From positions 3,286,001 to 3,350,000 of the forward strand of contig NGZR01000003.1 of assembly GCA_002197995.1 (NCBI GenBank): a stretch of DNA of 64,000 nucleotides, written 5' to 3'. Positions 33,759-48,435 of this stretch are shown one piece after another. The notes below the pieces were generated by a model, which did not search any database, had not been told where the DNA came from, and saw only the letters and a list, made by a program, of their open reading frames with translations. A program made the translations under genes and the position numbers. Within the stretch, counting starts at the first letter, position 1. Every line of letters starts with the position of its first letter. This stretch comes from Gaeumannomyces sp. JS-464 (taxonomy: Eukaryota; Ascomycota; Sordariomycetes; Magnaporthales; Magnaporthaceae).

Positions 33759-33760
33759 TA

Positions 33761-33788
33761 AGTCAGTGCACCCCCTGTCCGGCCACCT
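33761..33788. repeat. Left terminal inverted repeat of the pogo-class element
   Basis: 28 bp, identical in reverse complement to 35559-35586. Preceded by TA at 33759-33760. Confidence 0.95.
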
Positions 33789-33846
33789 TGCACGGGCCCG
33801 ATCACCACCCAACCCAGTGCATTCAACTGCTATTTTCTACCTCTAT

Positions 33847-35457
33847 CTAACTAACCTCGATACAAGAGTATACTGATTCCTGATCAGAATTTTCCGCTCT
33901 TTCAGATGCTGTATCCGTCACCTCCTCAACGTCACCCCTTGCCTTTGCAACGCGGCGGATATCCACAAAGGTCTGGTTGGGATCAGGGGCTACCTTCCTT
34001 TTTTTGCGAGGCCGCTGTGCCTCCAATTGGGCCTCTAACTGCCTCATTTTTTGATAAGCTGCAGCCAAGTCGTATTCGTGCACGCTGTAGCTTTTTTGAA
34101 GCTTTCGGAAGAAAAGTCGGGCCGTAGGGCTTGTAGGAATCCGGGTCTTGAAAGTGCTGATTTGGGTGGCCAACTCTCTCGACTGCTTGGGGGTCTCCCA
34201 GAGGACCTGGGACAGCCGGGCAGGGACCGTTGAACGTTGTTTGGCCCTGTTATCCTCTGCGGATTGTTGAATTCCGGCTCGTCGGTTGTCTTGGTTGGAG
34301 TTTTCGAGTATAAAGCGGCTTATGAGGGGTTTGGCTATATTCCGTGGCCAAAGGCCGGTTGCCCGCCACCCCGACTTAATTATATAAGGGGTAAAGGCTT
34401 TAGTGCGTGCGTAGGCATAACCTTCCAAAAATAAGCGTTTTCCTACTACTGTTGAGCAGGGAAATAAAGCTTGGGACCCTATTTTTTGGCGGTAGGCGTG
34501 TTTAAGAGGGCTAAAGACCGATAAATCGAGGGGCTGCAGTACGTGCGAGGTATAAGGGGGTAAATACAGCAAAAAAAAGTCGTTTTGCAGGCAAAAAGAC
34601 ATAAACTCTTTGGTTATATGCGATCCGTGGCCATCCAATATTAAAAGCCGGGGTTTAGGGGTAGGAGGCCGGGTGCGAGGGAGGAAGACTTTTTGCAGCC
34701 ATTCGACGGCCGTGCGATCCGTAATCCACCCGTTATCTGTTACAGTAAATTCCCAGCTTTCGAATTGGCCTAGATTTTCCGGAAACCACTGCTCCTGTAC
34801 GCTTTTTCCTTTAAAAATAATAAGGGGAGGAAGCGAGACCCCAGTGGCCGAGATGCATTCGATAAACGAGGTCCGGGTACGAGATCCGGGCTTTTTCCTT
34901 TGTAAAAGCCGGGCCTCCGCGAGGCCTAGAACGAGCCCGTTGCCCGTTTTACCCTCCTGTAGGCCCCCCTCGTCGGCGTTGTACGTATTTTCCGGCTTGG
35001 TCCCGGCCACCTCCGGTATCTGCAGGCGTTCCCACTACTGCTTTATTGTAGCAGTAGTAGCCCCTTTAATACGTGCAGCCTTTATCCGACGGCCTTTTCC
35101 GGTACGGGTCTCCGGATATCGGCCTAAAAAACCACGGATCCAATGCTTCCCGAGGGGCAGGGAGGTACCCCCTTGCCGGAGGATCTCCTGTGCAAAAAAC
35201 CGGACTTCTGCATGCGTTGGCGGGAGCCCTAGAGAGGCCTGCAACAAGATCCAGTCCGCTAGGCGCTTCTTCCTGCTCAGGGGCTATCCGTTGATAGGCT
35301 CTTGTGACTGCCGGATAGGTAGGGCGCCTCGGAGGCGGTCTTGAAGGGTTGACCTTGGTATCCCGTAGGCTCGGGCAGCCTCCCGGATTGGGACCTTCGC
35401 TTGCACCGCGGCGACGGCCTGTTCGACCTCTCGTTCCGTATATTGTTTCTCTGGCAT
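33847..35457 (-). pseudogene. Pogo/Fot1 transposase with two in-frame TAG stops
   Basis: One frame of 537 codons runs from the methionine at 35457 (MPEKQYTEREVEQAVAAVQ) to a stop at 33847, broken only by TAG at 35284-35286 and TAG at 35035-35037. Domains in order are an N-terminal psq-type helix-turn-helix (REAARAYGIPRSTLQDRLRG), a CENPB-type HTH (ILRQGGTSLPLGKHWIRGFL), and a DDE_1 catalytic domain with YNADEGGLQEG, LLILDGHGSHITKEFMSFC and LPPYTSHVLQPLDLSVFSPL, carrying the expected acidic residues. The C-terminus is basic and coiled (QLEAQLEAQRPRKKRKV). Both stops could come from CAG by a C-to-T change in a CpA context, which is what RIP produces. As written the protein is not made in full. 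Confidence 0.93.
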
Positions 35458-35558
35458 TTCAGCAATCGAATGCAGCAAAAAGTAAGGAAAACGGATTAGA
35501 ATTGATGGAATCCCGTAGAATTGAAGTACGTGCGACGATCTGAGGCCGTGGGGCTGCC

Positions 35559-35586
35559 AGGTGGCCGGACAGGGGGTGCACTGACT
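35559..35586. repeat. Right terminal inverted repeat of the pogo-class element
   Basis: 28 bp, identical in reverse complement to 33761-33788. Followed by TA at 35587-35588. Confidence 0.95.
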
Positions 35587-36210
35587 TATTCCAGGCTCAT
35601 CAATATTGACTACGGGAGTCCCTTGTACATGGCTCCGTAGTGTGACATGAACCTTGGAGAGATGCATAGTATTTCCATGACCATTTGATTCCGGTTTCTC
35701 CTGCTCCGTAGCCATTAATGGCCGTTACTCGACCAATATCATAGAGTAAAGTTTGACGATGGCAAAAACCAAGATATAATTAAACGAATGAGGGGTTCCC
35801 AGTGTGCAGCGGTACATTTGTGATTCGTAATTTCCCTGTCCCTACATAGGGAGTAGATAGCAATATATCCGCCTAGGTAGTGAAGAAAAGGAGATGAGTA
35901 CCCCGAGAAAGGAGTTGACGGTATTTGATCAGAACAGAACAGCACCACGTAGAAAACCTTATGACGACCCTATTGCCGTCCTTGGTCGCTTAATGGCGGC
36001 GGCCCAACATTCAAATAATGACTGAGGGGCGATGTGAGATAGTAGGGTGGTGGGGGGAGGGATTGTCCTGGAGGACCCAGGCGGACCGAGGAAGAAACGC
36101 TCGATCCGGGAAACACTTCGAACAAGCGACACTCCGAGCAACAAGCGGAGACACCTCTCTGGGGACCGGGTAACTAGAGCTTGACGAGATGAAAGCCGGG
36201 GAAGCCGGGA

Positions 36211-36609
36211 TCAATTTCTATGTTCGCCGAAGTAGCAGTGCGTTTTGATCTCGTCCTGCAGCATATGTTACCACCTTGGACGTAAAAGGGAAAATTTCTG
36301 GCGCCAGGCCGGTGTAGGTGGACAGGATGCACGTACGTCTGTTAATCGAGACCCGGCGCGGATATTGAACTTGTCGTGCTGCATCTGAACAAGGGGCGCC
36401 GTCAGTCGATCTCTGGATCCCTGCAGGAGAGGCCCATGGTGAGTGAGGAGCGGACGGACCACGACGTGATATTTGCCCTCACCAAAGCGCTTGTCGAGGA
36501 AGTCTAGAAGCTTGGATGGGTCAACGGGGCGGGCCGCGATCTTCTGTAGCTTGGACGAGCTGTCCCTGCCCACGGGAGTGGCAGCGCGTGGTGTTGGACA
36601 TCCATCCAT
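36211..36609 (-). CDS. Small protein family member A, unrecognised
   Basis: Three exons, 36460-36609, 36337-36384 and 36211-36255, join to 80 aa with both introns in phase 0 (75 and 81 nt). The protein begins MDGCPTPRAATPVGRDSSS. Its core is a helix (PSKLLDFLDKRFGEGKYHVV, end of exon 1) followed by MQHDKFNIRAGSRLTD (exon 2, exactly 16 codons). The tail is DEIKTHCYFGEHRN. I know no domain for it. The call is based on comparison with the copies at 43512-43910 and 48106-48435: the core aligns with conserved Gly, Val, Met-Gln-His-Asp, Ile, Ala and Leu, and the first intron falls at the same site. It is head-to-head with the kinase gene. The donor of intron 1 (GTCCGT) is weak, so the exact junction is less sure. 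Confidence 0.55.
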
Positions 36610-38321
36610 GGCCGAGAAGCAGTGTTCAAGGCAGCGGAACAGAACTTGGATCGGGGATTAGGTGGAGCGGGCTAGGGGTCAAACTAGGATCGGTAAACCA
36701 AAATAAAATAAATAAATAAAAACAGCGAAAGATTTAAAGCGAATATATGAGGCGATGTGATGTCATGCGTCAACAGAAGCCAGGGATCGATGCCTTTTGA
36801 TGCACATGCGGCTCTTGGTGGAGACCGATCTGGGGAACAAGTGGAAATGGGGATGGGAGTGGAAGCTCGACGGGCTATATCGCCGCGGGCACCTAGGCCC
36901 AAAAACGGGGTCTCGCGGGCCTCGCAGCCTGCTGGTAACACAGATGGTATGCTTTCGGACACCGGCATGAATGTGGCTGCGGGCTGGTCGGGCACTCACT
37001 GGTAGCGCTGCCGCCTCTGCGTGCGCCATGCGCCAGCACCTGGAATTTGGAGAGGGCCTTTTTTTTTTCTTCCTCGTGTTGGAGTGCACACCATCATCGA
37101 GGCCTCCTCCCTTTTGCCTGAAGACATTATGCAGCTGCGCCATCCATTAGCGTGCGCCAGGTTAGGCCTTTTGGGGTCCACTCATTCGGGCTCCTCCACT
37201 CCAATCTCCAGCTACCCTATCCAAGATCCTTGCCACGTCCTCCTGACGGCCCCTCAGTAGGGCCGTAGCCTCCACTAAGCGTCTGGTGGCTGCTCCACTA
37301 TCACACGCCTCTGGCGCTCGTGGCGTTCTTAGAAGCACTTGTGAGGCCTGTTTCGGCGACCAGGGTACCTCGCCTTTTCTGTGTGGTGGCGGAGCCGTTC
37401 TTTCTGGTCAGGCTCTTGACGAAGGGAGCGTTTTGCTCCGTTTTTCCTGCTCGTCTTGGCACATTTTCTCGCGGGAGGTGTGTAAGAAGTCAGTCAGTAT
37501 GCGCCCGGTTCCCGCCCACTGCAAGATAATTGACCATCCCAAGGCGGTCAACCAGACCTGTCGATGATCATATATGTACCTAGCGAAGGCGGTAGCGGCT
37601 TGGTCGTGTTGAAGGGAACCGGGCGTCTTGCAGCGTCGGCCGCCCAGGGTGCAAGCCCATACCCAATAACCCCCGTCAAAGAATTCCTACGGACCCTGGG
37701 CCTAACTCGGTTGCCCGGCTGCCTCGAATACGTATAAAAACAGTCACTTGCCCGGAATCGCACATGTTTTTAAGGCCAGTAGATCAACCTTACGTCCTAA
37801 ATACCTATCAATTAATTTTCCTTCAATTCCAATTCCCCCCACCACTTTGACTTTTCCCTCGCCTCTTAGGGACTGCCAGGAAAAAACATGCAACAGGTGA
37901 GTCAGCGCACCCTTAAAGGACAGACGAATAATCCCTCCACGATAGCACGCCTTTTCACGATCCTTGTGTAATACCGGCATACAATTCGATGCCTTGCTTT
38001 CTTCATTTTCAAGTCAGCCCGGGATTGCAGTTGTTGCTAGGCTGGCTGTCAAGGATCCTGTGATTCAGAAAGCCAGGCTAGCATGCTGTCATTGGTTACG
38101 TTCCTATCCATGTGCCAATGTCGTGGAGCCCACACTAAGCCAATCGACGTTTAGACAAAACGAAGCTTTCGGAGAGCTCTACCCGATTCCGCGACAGCCT
38201 GCCACCGACTCTCTTCCCTCTCTCGTGTGCACTTGTTCCGATCCTGCCCAGGAACCGCTAGACGAGCAACCACTTAGCGGCGAAAACGCAATCTTGACAC
38301 CACCAAACCGAAGGAAGTGAC
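36610..38321. other. Spacer between small gene A and the kinase gene
   Basis: 1.7 kb between divergent starts. A short frame at 37964-38320 ends just before the first kinase exon and may be part of the kinase N-terminus in a shifted frame. Nothing else is supported. Confidence 0.4.
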
Positions 38322-40903
38322 GTGTGTCACGATTTGGGTGATAGCTATAGCACAGCGGAGGACCCACGGCTACACCTTTCGGCACCGTCCACTCAGAGCA
38401 CCGCCGAGGCCCAGCCGCAACGGCTTTCGGTGCAGTCCATCGATGCCACGCTCGAGGGCCAAAGGCAAGGCTCTCACGCGAGAAGGGAGCACCTTGTTGC
38501 TGGAATTTTCCCCGATCGTCCACCACTGACGGATCCAGACTCGGCTAGAAAGGAGCTTGTGAAAAGGCTCCGGCAGGCCATTGTCCAGACCAGTCTTACG
38601 GGGAAGAGTGATGAAATTGCGGAGTACGTGCCTCGGGGTAAACTATGTGAGCTGGTAACCGAGGCCACCGTGACAGCGGTGCTCCGGGGCGAGGGCATGT
38701 CTCAGACCGAGTCTGAGACTTTGGCACAACACATTTGCGTGCCATCCGTGGTCCACGCTAGATGGGGGCAACAAGGCAAAAACCAGCGGTCGACACGGCG
38801 AAAGCTTTTTGCTACATTGGCCTTGATCTCAAAGGTTAGCGCCATTGGCTGCTTCATCGACCAGCGCATCCTCGACACACCCACACTACCCTTTTGAAAC
38901 AGCGCGACGCCAGCGGGGCCGTGTTTCTCAGCCTCAAAGCGTCTCCCCAACAGCGCCTCATCTTGCTGCAGAGACTGGACGGATAACGACGTGGGCCACT
39001 TTGATGTGAACAGTGGCCTTTCTTGTCGCCGTTTTCGCGAACCCAGAATCAATCGAAGAGACAGGGGAAGGGTTATACCTACCCATTGCACGCGAAGATT
39101 GTGCCCCCCTTGAGGTTCATCAAGGAGGATAGTCCGGAGGCAGAGGCAGAAACGGAGGCCAATGGCGGGTTCAGCACCGTCTACAAGGTGCTGTTTGATC
39201 CGGACCACCACAACTTCGCGCCCGCAAAAGAGGTAAGAAAAGTCCTGTCTCCACTGTTGCACACCGAAAGCAACAATGGTTGGCGGATCCGAATAAGCCG
39301 CGAAGCTTGTAAGCTCCGTATCTGACATCCCTTTGCGGTCTCAGAGAAAGACGTTCTTTTTAGCTCTCAAAAGACTGCACAGTCCGGACAAGATGGCCTT
39401 CAACCGAGAGGTTGAGGCATTGAAGAGATTCAGTCACTCTGGCGATCTGCACTTGATCAAACTCCTCTGGACATACCATTGGAGGGGCAACTACTATCTC
39501 GTGTTTCCTTGGGCCGACGGCAATCTTTGGGGATTCTTTGCAAAATATCCCAATGGCCCGGAGTTGACCCCGGATCGCCCGCGTGAGGTCTGGATGAAAT
39601 GGCTAGCCGAGCAGTGCCATGGCATAACAGCAGCTCTTTCAAGGATTCATGTTGGTGAAACATGCAATCCTAGAGCTAATGACCCCTCCCCCTCCATAAG
39701 CCTGAAGGCTACGGAGCCCTTGGCTCCCACAGACAGCCGCAAATACGGTCGTCATGGTGACATCAAGCCCGAAAATATTCTTTGGTTCTCGCCCAGGAGC
39801 ACTGGGGATCCAAAAGAGATCGGGCAGCTTAAAGTCAGCGACTTTGGGCTCAGCGATTTCCACCACCATAACTCACGATCGAACCAGGACGCAAACAGAG
39901 CCATGTGGTCCGGAACATACCATGCCCCGGAGTGTCTGACCTTAAGGAGGCTTTCTCCGTCATATGATATCTGGACTCTCGGATGTGTCTTTATCGAGTT
40001 TGTCTCCTGGTTTCTGCTGGGCAGCGAGGCAACCAAGGTTGAGTTCTCGGACAGACGGTTAGAAGACGACAAACTGAACGCAATACCCGAGGATACCTTC
40101 TTCAACGTTCAGGACCAGGACCGTACTGTCCACGCTGTGGTCAAGAAGTCTGTGCTGGACTGGGTAGACAAGCTCCGCGATAATGAGGGGTGTTCGCCCT
40201 TTCTCGACGATCTCCTCAACTATATCCTCTCGGACATGTTGGTCGCTTCAGCCGACAAGCGAGCCGCTTGCCCTCAGGTGGCGGAACGACTCAAAGAGAT
40301 GCTGCAAAGCTGCGGGGCGGACTTGGAATACTGCCTCAAACCAAACAAGACACCCGTGCCATCTCGCTCTGCCACTCTCTCGTCCGGTATTATTTACGAG
40401 GAAGACGAGCGGGACGAAGTTCGGCAAAGTCTGGCTAGGAAGGGGCGGGGCCAATCATCGAGACGTGAATCGAGCCCAAGTGGGGGTGGGATGGTTAAAA
40501 GAGCCGCAACACCTGAGTCGTTTCACCCGCCCCCTTTGAAGACAACGCCCTTCATAACCGCCCAATCTGGGCAGCAACTATCCATGACCCGCAACTGCTC
40601 AAAATTCCCGACCCGGAGCCTCGGGGAAAGACTGATGAGGAACAGCCAAACGGGCCTAGCTCCGCTTCGGGCGATACCCAGACTGTGTCGTGCCAACCAG
40701 CTGGCAATGACCCACAGGTTGAGATGGCGAGCAGCACGCCAAAGATCGGGGCAGTTAGTAATCCCGTAGTCTCGGGGCATAATGGCGGGCATGGGGAGTT
40801 TGGTGATCGTAGGGAAGGCAGATGGCTTGAAAGGTTAAAGTCGTGCTGTGGTTATTGCTACTGCTGCTTTAGCTGGAGGGATAGCCGAGGTGGCTGTGAT
40901 TGA
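38322..40903 (+). CDS. Protein kinase domain protein with fungal N-terminal domain, frame broken
   Basis: N-terminal region (about 190 residues) contains ELVKRLRQAIVQTSLTGKSD and RRKLFATLALISKVSAIGCF, a block typical of a fungal-specific group of kinases. Ser/Thr/Tyr kinase motifs follow in order: glycine loop NGGFSTVYKV, lysine in FFLALKRL, helix C NREVEALKRF, catalytic loop HGDIKPENIL (HGD in place of HRD), SDFGLSDF, YHAPEC and SYDIWTLGCVFIEF. The residues needed for catalysis are present. An intron runs from 39234 to about 39345. Frame breaks occur near 38895-38900 and between about 38900 and 39090. At the 3' end one frame stops at 40769, while another continues from about 40570 with PDPEPRGKTDEEQPNGPSSA to a Cys-rich end at 40903. 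The substrate is unknown. It is divergent from small gene A. Confidence 0.72.
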
Positions 40904-41604
40904 ATTAGGGTTAGCGGAAACCAAAAAGACTCGAAACGTCTCCAAACTCATTAGGTCCAATACCGTAATTAAACGCGTTTGGTTTTTTTTTTTCTTATTC
41001 TTTTCCTTTTTGGGTTTTAGATTTCAAGGTTTTAAATGTGGGTTTGTTTCGGTTTTAGGTTTTTAAGTTTGGGTTTATTAAAAATTAAGTCCTATGGGTT
41101 TTAAGTTTTTTTTAGTTTTAAATTTTTTTAAAAATATTGTCGGATAGTTATTCCGGCGCATGCACTCGAGGGATTTGGAGGCCTGGGAGGCCTGGGAGGC
41201 TCCCAAGGCCTACAAGGCCCATAAGGCCCACGTGACCTAAAAGCCCAGACCCTTTCGCAGATAAAAGGGGGCCTGTTGGCCCCTTCTCCTGTAGCTAAAT
41301 CTCCTTCCTCTTCATGCACAATACAGGAACCCTCCAGATTTATAAATCTTTGTGTGTCACCATGGGAGAGCTCCGGGCCTTTGACAGGAGTAACACTCCT
41401 ACCAACAAATATCTTTAATATTTTAAAAATTAAATATATTAATTTTAACAATATAATATTGTATATTATATATAAATTTTATAATAAGATGGATTTAAAA
41501 GGAATCGCCATGTTAAAAGGTTAAAAAAGTGATAAATTTCGCTATTAAAAAGAAAAGTTACAGGTTACAAAGCATAACTTTAATAATTTAAATAGGGCTA
41601 CCAG

Positions 41605-42041
41605 TGTTACAATCAAAAGGTCTGCTCTTAAAGTAAGGCACTTAAGGAAAGGGAAAAAACAGTGTACTGGTTTGAATGACTGGGGTTTAAGGAACTAAGG
41701 TTTGGATTGCTTGTTTTAAGAAATACCTAAAGACTAACTTAAATTAACTAATGCCGAAGCCTTAGTTAAAAACAGGTACTTACAAAGGGAAATCCTTCCC
41801 TTTTATACTTTTATGCCTTTGCTGGTTGCTGGACAGTCGCTTTGCGATTTGAAAGGTTTGTTTAGATCGCTTAAATCACTTCGTTGGCCCCCGTCGTGGC
41901 TGTGGACGGAGCGATCTGGATCGATCCCTTAGGTTGTTCCAATCGTTCTTCCTCCACGTGGCCTGCCCCTTTTTCCTGGTGGTTGGCGGGGCTTTGGGTT
42001 TTCCAAGTGCCCCGCACCTTTCGAAGGGCCTAATCGTAACA
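41605..42041 (-). mobile_element. Probable LTR of a degraded retrotransposon
   Basis: 437 bp with matching ends: it begins TGTTAC and ends GTAACA, so it has TG..CA borders with a 6-bp inverted repeat. On the minus strand it has a TATA-like box (GTATAAAAGGG). One base beyond its 3' edge on that strand is TGGTAGCCCTA, a plausible primer-binding site. The flanking five bases do not match, so this may be one LTR of a truncated element rather than a solo LTR. The second LTR and internal genes were not found. Confidence 0.5.
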
Positions 42042-42523
42042 CTTTTTTAAAATAGTAAAGGTTATTTTCCAGTGGGGATTTCGTAATCGGGTTTGTATTT
42101 AATACAGTTTTTAGCACATAAAATCGCATTAAAAGCAATGTATCCTTACGTTGTCCCCACCCTGTTAGTATTTTAACTTGTGCTTAAATTTATGCTTTCC
42201 TTTTGTAGCCCTTTAACGAGGTTAAGGGGCCCACCGATTAACTTTTACTATTTTCGAAAGGTGTAAGTGTTAAAATCGGTACATTTAAGTCGTACCCGAC
42301 TTTTACCCGTGGCTTTTAGTTAAGTGCACTTAACGCGTATTTAACTTTTATACACTTAACTAGTTGGCTTTACTTAACAACTGTTGCTATTAATTGTAAT
42401 AAATTTACAATTTTATTAATTAGCTTTGTACGCGCCAAACAATTTTAAACGCTTTTAAATACTTAAAAAAACTTAAAACCCACACGTTAATTACCATTTT
42501 TAAGTTCTTATTTAAGTTTTAAG

Positions 42524-42708
42524 TGTGATATATTCGTGCTTATGGCACGAATATTCGTAGGCTTAAAGGTAACCCTTAAGCCAAGTATATAAAAAGGCGG
42601 AACGCCCTTTTCCTCCCTTTGTAGCAAACTTTCCTTTTTTTTTCATCTTCCACAATAATAATACAAGGGCTTTTAACAGTTTTTCAACTTGCAGTTAAGC
42701 TTATAACA
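42524..42708 (+). mobile_element. Solo LTR (copia-like) with TTAAG duplication
   Basis: 185 bp starting TGTGATATATTCG and ending TTATAACA, with TG..CA borders. It is flanked on both sides by TTAAG (42519-42523 and 42709-42713), a 5-bp target duplication. Near the start is a perfect 10-bp inverted repeat (ATATTCGTGC, 5-nt loop, GCACGAATAT) of the kind common in fungal copia LTRs, and a TATA box (TATATAAAAAGG) lies in the middle. No internal region is next to it, hence a solo LTR. Confidence 0.65.
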
Positions 42709-43511
42709 TTAAGTTTTCTTTAAACCCGAAGATTATAAGTTTAAATAATAACGCATTTACGGTTTTCGCTAACTTTAAATTAAAAGTAAAAAGCACTGCG
42801 CACGTTAACAATAATTAGTAACCCTTTTCTTTAAATTAAAAGTGATAGCTAAATACTTAATGCGTAAATAATTATGTTTTTTCGCCGGTGATTAAGTAAT
42901 GTTTATAGTTATTTTAATAAAAAAGCGGTGGGCGCACTCGTGTAAATATGTTTAAAAAGTTTTTAATGCATTAATTAACTAGTATTACTATGCCGACGAA
43001 AAGAATTTCAAATTTTCCGGCTGTTTTAAAAGGAAAGCAAAAATCCCCCCACCCGTTAACTGGAAGTTGAATTAGCATAACAAGAAAAAGAGAGAAATTA
43101 ATAAATTTATAGTAAAGTGAAAAAATTAACTAGGTTTTATTGGCTGAAAGTTTAAATATGCTAAAGCGAAGTTTTCTTTTGCAAAAAAAAAGTATTTTAC
43201 CAAACCTTTTAAAACAACGTAGAATAAGTTTCAAATTTAAAGCCTAAAAAATGAACAGCGCAAATACATGTTTCTTGTCAACCTTGAACAGTTTTATACC
43301 CAAACTGCCGACGACCTTTGCTGTGGGCAAATCTTCCGTTTTCCGTCCGGCCATTTGAAGAAAAATAGTAGCCCGTAGTTTACTGATCCTTGGAACCGTT
43401 CTCCTCGAAATTCGTGGCATAGTGGTGGTAGCTTTGTATGTACAAAACTTCCTCCTGTTCGTTGTTTTCCAGTTGGTTTTATCAATTCGTTAGCATACGT
43501 ACTTGGTATTC

Positions 43512-43910
43512 TCAGCCACTCCTAGCAGCGTGTCTCGTCATTCTGAAAAGGGTGCTGCCCTGGGGAATACAGGGGAAGAATTACGAAGATGGGACATGGG
43601 GTATGGGTGTCTTTCATTCAAGAGGCGCCGCTTAAATGAAACGAGGCCTAACCTCTGTAATTAGCCTCGGGGCTTGTATTTGGTAGTGGCCATTCTGGCA
43701 CTGCAGTTGTTTTATAAGTAAAAAAGATTAGTTAAGGAGTTCACAGCAGGCTCCCTAATGGGGAGCCTTCAAATTAAAGAATAGGATGTAACGAACCTTC
43801 GCGGTGAAGTTCTTGCCGAATTTCTCTTGTAGCCACTGGGTCATGAATTCTTTCTTGATATAGGTGGCGCAAATTTGTTGAGTAACCAGTTTTGACTTGC
43901 TTCCTGCCAT
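43512..43910 (-). CDS. Small protein family member C, unrecognised
   Basis: Exons 43797-43910 (38 codons), 43653-43700 (16 codons) and 43512-43559 (16 codons with stop) join in phase 0 to 69 aa. Exon 1 is MAGSKSKLVTQQICATYIKK and continues to LQEKFGKNFTAK. Exon 2 reads CQNGHYQIQAPRLITE. Exon 3 is short and basic (GSTLFRMTRHAARSG). The core matches copies A and B: a helix ending in (D/E)KxFG, then an intron, then xQ(N/H)(G/D)x(Y/F)xIxA. Exon 2 has the same length as exon 2 of copy A. The start methionine at 43910 could be preceded by more sequence in the same frame (to 44054). No known domain. It is head-to-head with the CorA-like gene. Coding potential rests on the family comparison. Confidence 0.5.
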
Positions 43911-44142
43911 GGCTAATTTTAATTCAGGCGTCGACGATAAGTAGAAATCCCTCTCCCTGTTGGGTATGAATGAGCCGAAGCAGCGCAATGGCTGCTGCCT
44001 CGCAGTGTTTAGGTCCGGCTCTCGTCGCCTTTTGTACACTTCACGCCCCGACAAGCGACGCGCGACCCTGATAAAGCGGTCGACCGATTGTGAGAGGCCA
44101 TCTGGCGAGCAGAGCCGCCTCGAGCACCGTATGCCATTGGCA

Positions 44143-44308
44143 TATGGCTGCTAAATCGGCAAAGCAAAAAAAGAAACTTAGTGGCCTGCTGGTTGCATAC
44201 GAGAGCGCAGTGGATCTGTGGCTGCAGAGTCGCACCCACTATGAATTGCCCGGCTGGAGAGAAAGCAGAGAGGAGAAGAGGAGAATCAAGACGAATCCTG
44301 AGTTCTGA
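44143..44308 (+). other. Possible small frame, uncertain
   Basis: A short frame reading KSAKQKKKLSGLLVAYESA and ending RREKR-like basic residues, between small gene C and the CorA-like gene. No recognised family. It may be a remnant of another gene or chance. Confidence 0.2.
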
Positions 44309-44965
44309 AAGTGGCCAGCTTCTATTCGATCTTCAAGCATGCCTACCATCTAGTGGTGCACATCTTTTTTAGCGCCACAAATTCTAATGTGCTTTGCGAT
44401 GTTGGATTAAAAAGCTTCTAGTTCTGCCGATAGCCTTGCTGCCGGTGCGAGGCGCTGCAGGCCGCATGGAATGGGCCATCCTACCTTTGCCCACCATCTT
44501 CCTCATGCTTGTGGGTGTGGCATCCCGTAGCTGAGCCAGTTAGCACAATCTGCGAGACTGAAAAGGAGGTCAGGTGGCCCATTTTCTGTGCCAACTGGGC
44601 ACACACACATACAACCCTCGGGCATGCACACGTATACTGCATGGTTTTAATGCACCACGAGAACAAACGCCCGGGAAACGGGGCAGAGATTTATTGGACG
44701 GGCTTGGGGCAATCCTGCTGTGCTGAAATCGGGCGTCACGCGGGCTGTGCCACGCGGTATGCCCAGGCAGGACGTCCGATGTGCGGGAAATAGAGATAAT
44801 CAGGAGATGGTGGAGGAAGCTTGGGAAAACAAAAAACCAAATACTGGAGGGGAGCGAGCTCCTTCCTGCTGTGATCTTAGCTATCTCCAAAAGTTGACTC
44901 GAGCAATTCATCACCCACGACACCATACCTGATACTGCCAGAACCCTCAGAGGAAAGCTCACAAA

Positions 44966-46905
44966 ATGGACTGGACTAATACGCGGCCCGAATTCCTCCA
45001 GAGAGACAAGGACATCTTTTCCCACGAGCAACGCCAGTCACTCATTGTCAAAAAGACCATCTCAGATAACGTGAGCACGATCTTTTTTAAGCAGGATTGC
45101 TTGTAATGATGCTGATAATTATGAGCATACCAATAGGGTGTTCTTGATAAATGGGAAGTCACATCAGACGAGGACTGGGAGCAGTGGCTTCAACAGGATC
45201 ATTTCTGTAAAGGCGGACACAACACACCGGGAATAGGGGCCATGTATGGTTAATTCCACCTTCATGCCCAAAGTACAACTCGTTAAAAGCTACAACGCGA
45301 TCTGACAGACTGACGTTCCTTCAGCCTGGCAACAAGGGCCCCAGACACTGCGGGTGATGACGAGGGAGACGGCACGACCTCGAAAGTCGAAGGTCCTGAT
45401 CCGCAGGTACTCAGGGGCCTCCCGTATTCGCGGGAGTATTCGATCGCATTATCACCAAGTTCTTCGTACACGGATCTATCACCAAGGCCATCCAAAGACA
45501 AGGACCAATCTTTTCGCGCACCCATCTGAAGATTGGGAACCCCCCTGAGCCTGCCATCGGTATACACTTGTGCTCCCAAGTATTTTTGCCCGTGTGGCGA
45601 TCTCTCCGCAAGTGGTTCAGCTAATGACCAGAGCGATTTCCAGTTTACGTTTGTCGGACATCAAATGCCTGGGCGGGCGACATGGCGCTTTCTGCCACTC
45701 ACTTCCCCAATTCCGGCTTCACCTACGCAGTCTTTTTCGGTTGTGAATTTGGCGAAAAGACCAAGGACAAATGCAAGCGGGTTCCAGTCACAGCCCTGAA
45801 ATCAGGGGACAGAATCACGGGACTTCTCAGCAATTCAGACGACACGGTCGCCCATCCTATGCTCCTCCCTGGGATTTTGGCTGAGCTCGAGCTAAGGCGA
45901 CACATGTCCATTGTCGGTCGGGCCGTGACGAATCTCCTGAATACGGTGGCTGATGTCAGCGCCGGAAAGGGCGCCGATTACAGAGCGTTCGCTCCCGGAC
46001 GAGGCGAAGAGGATAACCATGCCATCAAACCATGGTTGGATATGCACATCATTAAGATTAAGTTGGAGTCCTGGCGGCGGGAGCTGCAGAAGATGGTTCA
46101 TCATGTTAAGGAGCTATCTCGGACGCAGTACCTTGCCCGTCGGGTCCCTCGCCAAGGAGATATCAACCACCTGACTCTCCAGCCCTATACAGACGAGGAG
46201 ATCAGTGCATGTGAGGCTGAGGCAGTTAGAACAGCTTCACTGAGGGCGACGGGGGATCGGATCAGGGAGCGCCTGGAGGATATCATCGACCAGTACCACG
46301 AAAAGATCAGCGAGTGCACGTTGACCATGGAGGGCCTGACTCTGGCTACACAGGTGGTGCGTTAAAAGGAAGAGGGGATATTCAAATTTTGCGCGAAGTT
46401 GCTAATTCCTTATACCTAACCATGACTTTTAGGCACACACCAGGGCAAACATGGAGGTTGCCTTGGAAACGAAGAAAGATGGAGGACAGATGAAGTCAAT
46501 CGCTGTTCTCAGCATGGTGTTCCTCCCAGGAACGTTCTTTGCTGTGAGTCTGGTGCCAACATCTTTGACTCATCAAGAAGTGGCAAAGAAAGGAGTGACT
46601 CCTGAGCTGCCCACCCCCAATCCCGACTCCCCTGGACACGTCACTAACGGAACTCTACCGCGATCATTGGCCAGACATTCTTCTCAATGAGCTTCTTCAA
46701 GTGGGATTCGCCAGAGGGTGACGTGGTCTCCACGAAAATCTGGGTTTATTTCCTTATCACAGTCATTTTCACCGGCCTCACTCTGCTGATCTACAGCTGG
46801 TGGTCCCGAAGGCAATCCCGGAAAGCCATCAGCGAGAATGACCCTGAGTGGGCTCTCACAGCAGATTATACGGAGCTCTCTTCGATGAATGGGCACTCGA
46901 AGTAA
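44966..46905 (+). CDS. Fungal CorA-like membrane protein, frame broken
   Basis: Membrane protein of the fungal CorA-like group, related to CorA/ZntB divalent-cation channels but usually lacking a proven transport role. Exon 1 (44966-45070) is MDWTNTRPEFLQRDKDIFSH onward. Exon 2 starts at 45137 (GVLDKWEVTSDEDWEQWL). A conserved middle block follows near 45450 (FVHGSITKAIQRQGPIFSR), then GDMALSATHFPNSGFTYAVF and FGCEFGEK from 45680. Long helices run to 46353, then exon 46433-46543 with MKSIAVLSMVFLPGTFFA (first membrane helix), and the last exon 46675-46905 with TFFSMSFFKWDSP and the second helix (VYFLITVIFTGLTLLIYSWW). Frame continuity is lost between about 45200 and 45680, with two or more breaks or unseen introns. 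The canonical GMN motif is absent, as in this fungal group. It is divergent from small gene C. Confidence 0.65.
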
Positions 46906-48105
46906 TGTGCGAAAAGGCTGTGCCTCAATTTCGATCGTCACGTCGATATCTACTCTAGTCGGCAGCATTCGCGAGGTGGCAAAATTGTGATTTGAAGTAT
47001 TTATCTCATATTTTATACATAATATGTCGCTCCCGGCTCAACGTTCAGCTGCCAATAATCTTGCTTTTTTATGCACCTATCTCGGCCGGTACCTGGCATA
47101 CGAACGCCACCCTCTCTGTCCACTCGTAATCCGAGGCGAGCTGATGTGGCCCCGATCTGCTTGAGCTTGTCCACGTGTCATTTGAGACGTTGATGCCCAT
47201 TTTTTAGCTGCACCATTGACACACTATTGCATGCTCGGTCCGAGAAATGAATGCCAGGTGGTCACGTCGAACAGCCCAAGCAGGGCCGCCAAAACGATGT
47301 TCCAATTTTCATAGCGAGGGAAGGTGATTTGACCAGTGAGACCCAAGTTGACGTTCATCAAAGGGGGTCTTCGGGGGCCAATCTCCCGTTGGGACAAAAC
47401 AGAATCCCCAGCACCCCAGCTTTCTTCGCGGCATAACATCTTGTCGGCCAATTCTCGGACAAGACTCATCCGAACGTCGAACCAGGCTTGAGGATTTACA
47501 ACCCAAAAACATCAGCTCACTGGCGCACGTTCACGGTAGGATAGTTGACCTGGCGGCAAATCCGTAACGTGTTCCTCGGTAGGCACCTCCCTAGGCACCA
47601 ACATAGCATTTGACGCCCAGGTTTCATCTTATCAAAGCACGACTCGGCATGCACGCTGGTGGTTCGTGTTCTCAAAGTGACTGATCACTTCTCGCCCAAT
47701 TTTCCAAATCGGGGCAAGAACCGGAGGCAATCAGGAGAGTTTGAGGAACGATCTAGGTATCTCACTAGCACCGGTTTGGCCGAGGGCGGGCCTGCTTAGG
47801 CCCCACTGCCTTGATTTGGGCTAGCCAGCCTATCCAATTGTGCTACGGCCACTTGCACGTCACGTTGAGGCTGGCGGGTCTTCGCATTCGCTACCAAATG
47901 TTGGGAAAACCGTATGGAGGATGGCGATATCTCTTCATGCTCACGTCGTTGGCCTATAAAGGTCTAATGACTCTGCCTTCTGCTCAGCTGTGGCGTTGCA
48001 TGAGCAGAACAAGCCAAATATCAATTATCATCACATGAAGCCGACATAAGCGATCCTCATTCACGACGGGACCACACGACTCCAGGAATAACCTGCGCCA
48101 AGACT
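46906..48105. other. Spacer, no gene recognised
   Basis: A minus-strand frame at 47224-47469 has a hydrophobic stretch (NIVLAALLGLFDV), but nothing supports it as a gene. The spacer lies upstream of small gene B. Confidence 0.4.
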
Positions 48106-48435
48106 ATGGTTCTGACGCTTGTTCACACCCGATGGATCAAGACGCCGGGATTGCTGGTAGAAAGGCTGGAATCCAAGTACGGGCCAGGCCAATTCAAAGT
48201 GTCGGCAAGTATCGCCCTTAGCACATCCCCGCTGTGTTCGAAGAGTTCAAGGAACAAAGGGGAATTAACCTTATTGCCCGTGAGAAAGATGCAGCATGAC
48301 GTCTACCGGATAGAAGCCCCTGGGAAACTGAGCTGGCCGGAAGATATTCTGCCGTTATCGGATCCTAATATGCGACGATCCTGGCAAGAAGCTAGGGATG
48401 CAAAGTCGGCAGCAGCCCATCATCTACGGCAATAA
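48106..48435 (+). CDS. Small protein family member B, unrecognised
   Basis: Exon 1 48106-48204 and exon 2 48289-48435, joined in phase 0 across an 84-nt intron with a GC donor (GCAAGT), give 81 aa. The first exon reads MVLTLVHTRWIKTPGLLVER then LESKYGPGQFKVS. The second starts MQHDVYRIEAPGKLSWPEDI and ends in a charged helix (MRRSWQEARDAKSAAAHHLR). It aligns without gaps to copy A over about 28 core residues, with both breaking their exons at the same point. It lacks the second intron of copies A and C. Because the intron length is a multiple of three and has no stop, the unspliced frame is also open, giving 109 aa. No known domain. Confidence 0.55.
   Translation: MVLTLVHTRWIKTPGLLVERLESKYGPGQFKVSASIALSTSPLCSKSSRNKGELTLLPVRKMQHDVYRIEAPGKLSWPEDILPLSDPNMRRSWQEARDAKSAAAHHLRQ

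Follow-up and report, generated by a model that had tools for sequence, protein, structure and literature searches.

What are the short, intron-bearing genes that recur within a small part of the Gaeumannomyces sp. JS-464 genome, and do they belong together? The stretch in question, called the window here, comprises 64 kb (C23:3286001-3350000, C23 being contig NGZR01000003.1) of an assembly of 53.0 Mb in 34 contigs. It carries three such genes, A, C and B in their order along the forward strand, for which a preliminary description had proposed an aligned core, a shared first intron and membership of an unrecognised fungal small-protein family that had expanded locally. Sequence comparison now argues firmly that A, B and C are protein-coding members of one undescribed fungal family. 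The family matches nothing in the libraries searched and extends beyond these three genes: there are at least six diverged members in the genome, A, B and C in the window, D and F on contig C1 and E on contig C33, and a homologue is annotated in Gaeumannomyces hyphopodioides as RB595_010444 (P0001 below), a hypothetical protein of 80 amino acids (aa).

The family core and its gene models

The core reads L..L...FG...Y.V. before, and M.HD.YRI after, a phase-0 intron whose position is identical in all six genes. Core residues vary between members (the second half of C is CQNGHYQI), and P0001 agrees with the core as a protein. A and B align over 28 residues without a gap, as first reported.

Using only D, E and F, all on other contigs, we built a splice-aware profile and scanned it over the window. 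The best three distinct places were A (46.1 bits), B (34.3 bits) and C (14.2 bits), each at the intron originally proposed; the next different place scored 7.4 bits, and an alternative donor of A scored 33.0 bits. Among 200 random windows matched to the real one in third-order composition the maximum was 17.8 bits: none attained 18 bits or the level of A or B, and one exceeded C, which is why C is the weakest member. A reverse profile made from A, B, C and P0001 returned D (42.4 bits), E (46.2 bits) and F (37.8 bits) as sole candidates in their 10-kb loci, leave-one-out profiles scored A, B and C at 48.8, 40.1 and 14.9 bits, and the final profile found no member in any of 32 decoy loci. Because the search that first found D and E used an exon-2 pattern based on A and B, exon 1 alone is fully independent for these two; profiles restricted to exon 1 gave 30.8 bits for A, 12.3 for B and 9.2 for C. 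If short, unrelated open reading frames (ORFs) resembled one another by chance and there were no family, a score like that of C on its own would be the kind of result to expect, but those of A and B under a model from other contigs would not, and neither would an annotated homologue of A in G. hyphopodioides. These scores refute chance in the case of A, B, D, E and F, and we find it scarcely credible as a general account; the earlier claim of a resemblance beyond chance thus holds.

The gene models, in window coordinates, are the following.

36460..36609, minus strand: copy A exon 1, 50 aa, ending in KLLDFLDKRFGEGKYHVV, where P0001 aligns without a gap
36385..36459, minus strand: copy A intron 1, phase 0, GTCCGT..CTGAC..CAG, 75 nt
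36337..36384, minus strand: copy A exon 2, 48 nt, MQHDKFNIRAGSRLTD
36256..36336, minus strand: copy A intron 2, phase 0, GTACGT..CAG, across which P0001 stays in register
36211..36255, minus strand: copy A exon 3 and stop codon
43797..43910, minus strand: copy C exon 1, 38 aa
43701..43796, minus strand: copy C intron 1, phase 0, GTTCGT..CTGCAG, 96 nt
43653..43700, minus strand: copy C exon 2, 48 nt, CQNGHYQIQAPRLITE
43560..43652, minus strand: copy C proposed intron 2, tentative, from sequence only
43512..43559, minus strand: copy C proposed exon 3 and stop codon, tentative
48106..48204, plus strand: copy B exon 1, 33 aa
48205..48288, plus strand: copy B intron, phase 0, GC-AG type (GCAAGT..AAG), 84 nt
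48289..48435, plus strand: copy B exon 2 and stop codon, beginning with MQHDVYRIEAPGKLSW

Exons and frames of all three copies stand as first drawn, with a first intron in phase 0 at a common position; the products would be 80 aa for A (three exons), 81 aa for B (two exons) and 69 aa for C if it has three exons. A 48-nt second exon followed by a second phase-0 intron had been claimed for both A and C. Both gene models include the exon. The second intron of A is supported through the P0001 protein, which aligns gaplessly over both splice junctions, and that predicted for C is only possible, because the unspliced frame would end after six extra codons. No second intron is present in B, D, E or F. 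Copy C lies in a 2-kb block (window 42001-44000) with a guanine-plus-cytosine content of 0.36, against 0.46-0.65 in the remaining 2-kb blocks, and this block looks like mutated repeat DNA.

The three members outside the window came from searches of the same genome, D and E from exon-2 patterns and F from a protein query with D. All three have YEVD as the last residues of exon 1 and a phase-0 intron directly before the methionine of exon 2, with the donors GTAAGT, GCAAGT and GTAGGT, respectively. Beyond A, B, D and E the exon-2 patterns gave only chance or repeat matches in this genome; protein queries with A, D, C and B added F only; the motif QSIP..GIDP with up to three mismatches retrieved D, E and F and nothing else; and profile scans of the fetched loci showed no additional member. 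One weak place on contig C30 (protein query, expectation value (E-value) 1.08) was rejected, having no matching exon 2. Six is a lower bound, because less similar copies would escape these searches. No relative was found in phages with A as the query or in viral contigs with P0001.

P0001 was also the sole relative retrieved by word-based searches of about 5.8 billion proteins. These passed on only 5 and 10 candidates, and therefore say little about the absence of relatives. P0001 and A are 71% identical over 73 residues, gapless across both splice junctions, which makes P0001 the apparent orthologue of A; it is uncharacterised, resembles A in its length of 80 aa and is not of the D/E/F type. 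A transcriptome-informed annotation of Gaeumannomyces genomes has been reported (PMC11905480), but the main text of that article nowhere mentions the tag RB595, and P0001 therefore cannot be attributed to that annotation.

Divergence, constraint and predicted nature of the proteins

The members are strongly diverged. Identity is 64% between D and F (56 residues) and 54% between D and E (74 residues), A is 39-44% identical to D, E or F (44% to E), and A, B and C are mutually 29-37% identical (A-B 37%, A-C 29%). In a tree of the core, A and P0001 stand apart from the rest with a support of 95, and support within the rest is 29-54. As far as the short core tells, the separation of A, B and C probably predates the split between the lineages of JS-464 and G. 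hyphopodioides. A recent tandem expansion did not produce the trio: identity among its members is no higher than that of A to D, E or F, and the closest relative of A is in G. hyphopodioides. Of the local expansion proposed earlier there remains the presence of three copies within 12 kb; a recent origin does not fit their 29-37% identity, and half of the known members lie on other contigs (two on C1, one on C33).

Nonsynonymous (dN) and synonymous (dS) divergence, computed by the Nei-Gojobori method, was 0.33/1.66 for D-E and 0.34/1.13 for D-F, showing purifying selection for these pairs. In the remaining 13 pairs dS ranged from 0.88 to saturated, on 27-68 residues. For some of these pairs the signal is far weaker, and constraint is therefore shown for the D-E-F group and not for every window copy.

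That no known protein family fits was borne out in the libraries searched. In Pfam, none of the seven proteins (A-F and P0001) scored above the curated cut-off, the sub-threshold resemblances being those of C to DExH18_N (E-value 0.12) and F to SUI1; in NCBIfam none of the six (A-F) did, with weak matches for D and E only; and a sequence search of the PDB gave nothing significant (best E-value 0.91). The core may form a helix-strand-strand-helix unit with the intron at the end of the first strand, according to a low-confidence AlphaFold2 model of P0001 computed from P0001 and the single-exon rows of A, B and C. The model places helices at residues 31-42 and 66-77 and strands at 47-52 and 55-60, with a predicted local distance difference test (pLDDT) score of 74-78 at residues 31-50 and lower values in the rest of the protein, about 50 in the second helix and 61 on average. 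The match of F to the SUI1/eIF1 domain (PF01253) covers the first helix and strand (E-value 0.055). It reaches 14.4 bits against a cut-off of 25.5, A-E and P0001 show no such match, and F is not a member of that family.

The product is probably a small basic intracellular protein. Net charge is +3 to +8 in the six proteins, each has 0-2 cysteines, and simple hydropathy detected no signal-peptide-like or membrane stretch in any of them (N-terminal 10-residue maximum 1.05 for B and below 0.8 for the other five). These properties bear on the idea that the genes encode secreted plant-interaction effectors, as is often supposed for small fungal genes near transposons. Their small size and a pogo-like element 0.6 kb from A would suit such effectors; the hydropathy and cysteine counts do not, nor does selection on D-E and D-F that is purifying and not diversifying, and we consider the idea very improbable.

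Kinase, HET and transposon surroundings

The setting beside protein kinase genes had no place in the preliminary description. It concerns one gene in the window and a block present twice on contig C1.

38322..40769, plus strand: Ser/Thr protein kinase gene between A and C, with a probable N-terminal region at 38322-38897 and the kinase domain in ORF 39333-40769
C1:3470201-3480200 (L061) and C1:3012501-3022500 (L063), mutually inverted and 0.46 Mb apart on one contig: duplicated block of a kinase gene (leftward), a small gene (rightward; D in one copy, F in the other), a kinase gene (rightward) and the 5' region of a HET gene

ORF 39333-40769 matches Pkinase with an E-value of 5.5e-17, and the piece at 38322-38897 was joined to it by position and by a weak match to the N-terminal region of another kinase. 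Among 120 of 682 matches listed, three relatives are 59% identical (from G. avenae, G. tritici and Magnaporthiopsis poae), none is named as a kinase of G. hyphopodioides, and the small-protein domain was not found significantly fused to a kinase (best E-value 0.097). With the kinase core as the query, at least 13 matches at no fewer than 9 loci were obtained in the 53 Mb (E-value of at most 1e-5). Those of this class that were inspected have HGD in the catalytic loop, which in kinases usually reads HRD. Two more divergent pairs of the class occur at C1:4953135-4960641 and C1:5229914-5235984, the kinases being 7.1 and 5.5 kb apart. A 12.6-bit candidate for the small gene in locus L064 ran antisense to a kinase gene and was rejected.

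D lies between two protein kinase genes, the upstream one on the opposite strand and the downstream one on the same strand; a HET-domain gene (E-value 5.4e-22) follows the downstream kinase, and ankyrin genes flank the arrangement on both sides. The F locus has the same arrangement, inverted. Any HET domain there would lie beyond the fetched stretch, in which the region matching the upstream part of the HET gene was seen. The two loci thus share the order of both kinases, the small gene and DNA similar to the 5' region of the HET gene, with 43% identity between the divergent kinases and 70% in the core (52% over a longer match) between the co-oriented ones. Around A, B, C and E, none of the ORFs that were tested matched HET.

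From small gene to nearest kinase match the distance is 2.4 kb for F, 2.4 kb for D, 3.1 kb for A, 3.5 kb for C, 8.0 kb for B and 1.1 Mb for E. A kinase of the window class therefore lies within 3.5 kb at three of four loci (the window, D and F, not E), and four of the six genes are near kinases. At a 5-kb limit, three of four loci would be linked by chance with a probability of 4e-8; counting D and F as one raises this to 1.5e-5.

E sits between a pogo-like and a DDE_4-type transposase. Its flank has nothing in common with D or F and shares with the window only the pogo-like element (blastn, 1e-5), which in the window occupies 33759-35588, has 34-nt terminal inverted repeats that are 97% complementary, and contains two ORFs, one for a DDE_1 transposase (33847-35010) and one, from 35284, with a helix-turn-helix (Psq). 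The end of this element is 0.6 kb away from A, and a second copy, with 82% identity, lies about 6-7 kb from E. Such proximity might suggest that a transposable element has spread the small genes round the genome, either as cargo or as remnants of its own coding sequence. We hold this to be even less probable than secreted effectors: only six copies were found, each diverged; the similarity between the D and F flanks lies in kinase and HET genes, and the E flank is unlike both; none of A, B and C is bracketed by inverted repeats at least 25 nt long; and D-E and D-F are under purifying selection.

Elsewhere in the window, a 227-aa ORF (45682-46365) between C and B has no Pfam match and no similar stretch in the searched D, E, F or kinase loci, and the protein at 59734-60306 matches Egh16-like (PF11327), described in Pfam as a virulence factor family.

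Possible roles and known counterparts

The closeness of four of the six genes to kinases, together with the HET gene that ends one copy of the block, suggests that the small proteins may serve a self/non-self system. They could be small intracellular adaptors or regulators that bind the neighbouring kinases or the HET protein and so tune a self/non-self or regulated-cell-death response; we put the probability of this at roughly one in three. The rapid divergence of the small protein would suit a part of this kind. HET domains have been described as TIR-like and linked to cell death (PMC12881547). In the mechanism we envisage, each gene encodes a small protein, as the sequences show, with purifying selection in D-E and D-F; its core would form, if the low-confidence prediction is right, a two-stranded hairpin between two helices; and in the D and F cassettes it might be an adaptor or a brake that works together with both kinases and the HET protein. 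More speculatively, sequence differences between copies would set specificity, a role that would agree with how strongly A, B and C have diverged.

A number of observations weigh against this adaptor role. The linkage test was chosen after the neighbours of D and F had been seen, and at a 3-kb limit A and C (3.1 and 3.5 kb) drop out. No kinase was found in the 18 kb at E (C33:1150201-1168200), the nearest one found being 1.1 Mb off. An advance prediction failed, as no member was present in either full interval between the two further divergent kinase pairs (C1:4.953-4.961 and 5.230-5.236 Mb); four single kinases had none within 6 kb of their 5' side, the only side covered; and altogether six of nine kinase loci lacked a member in the parts examined. 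Since no kinase was found near E and no member in the parts of six kinase loci covered, the partnership between the small gene and this kinase class is not obligate. In fungal genomes, HET genes and young genes are clustered in any case. The dN/dS ratio is near 0.7 for A-C (0.90/1.31, 49 residues) and B-C (0.63/0.88, 27 residues). Finally, overall confidence in the P0001 model is low, and a Foldseek search of the PDB with this low-confidence model gave nothing significant (best E-value 1.4).

At least equally likely as a functional link to kinases or HET proteins is that the family is lineage-specific with a general intracellular role unrelated to kinases, the proximity reflecting young genes that gather in fast-evolving regions. 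In Neurospora, 42 of 69 HET-domain genes have been reported as clustered with lineage-specific genes (PMC10684091), and the position of E among transposons, away from window-class kinases, as well as the six kinase loci without a member, would be expected on this account. It is less easily squared with the D and F loci, where kinase, small gene, kinase and HET 5' region follow one another in an unchanged order and orientation although the kinases are only 43-70% identical, or with a chance adjacency of 1.5e-5 when D and F are counted once.

If the adaptor role applies, one may go further and picture a fungal self/non-self cassette of two divergent kinases, a HET protein and, between the kinases, a helix-hairpin-helix regulator of about 77 residues that would link kinase signalling to HET-triggered death, with A, B and C as a rearranged relative comprising one kinase and three regulators. 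We regard this fuller version as doubtful. To our knowledge, the wiring between receptor, kinase and HET effector in fungal self/non-self systems is little understood, and a true kinase or HET link would make the small proteins regulatory parts of such systems. The duplicated kinase-small gene-kinase-HET block makes that link testable in a single locus. Small multi-exon genes of this size are easily overlooked by annotation.

In the literature searched, as far as its texts were available, neither the family nor a cassette of this type is described, which for the family is no proof of absence in print. The picture of a fungal small-protein family given at the outset is filled out by three further members and a G. 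hyphopodioides homologue, together with the phase-0 intron shared by the six genes. The lineage-specific genes reported as clustered with HET genes in Neurospora (PMC10684091) are likewise short and intron-bearing, with no known domain, and as in those clusters D adjoins a HET gene and F the matching HET 5' region. Unlike them, the genes described here form one defined family, united by their core and intron, and kinases are commoner neighbours than HET genes.

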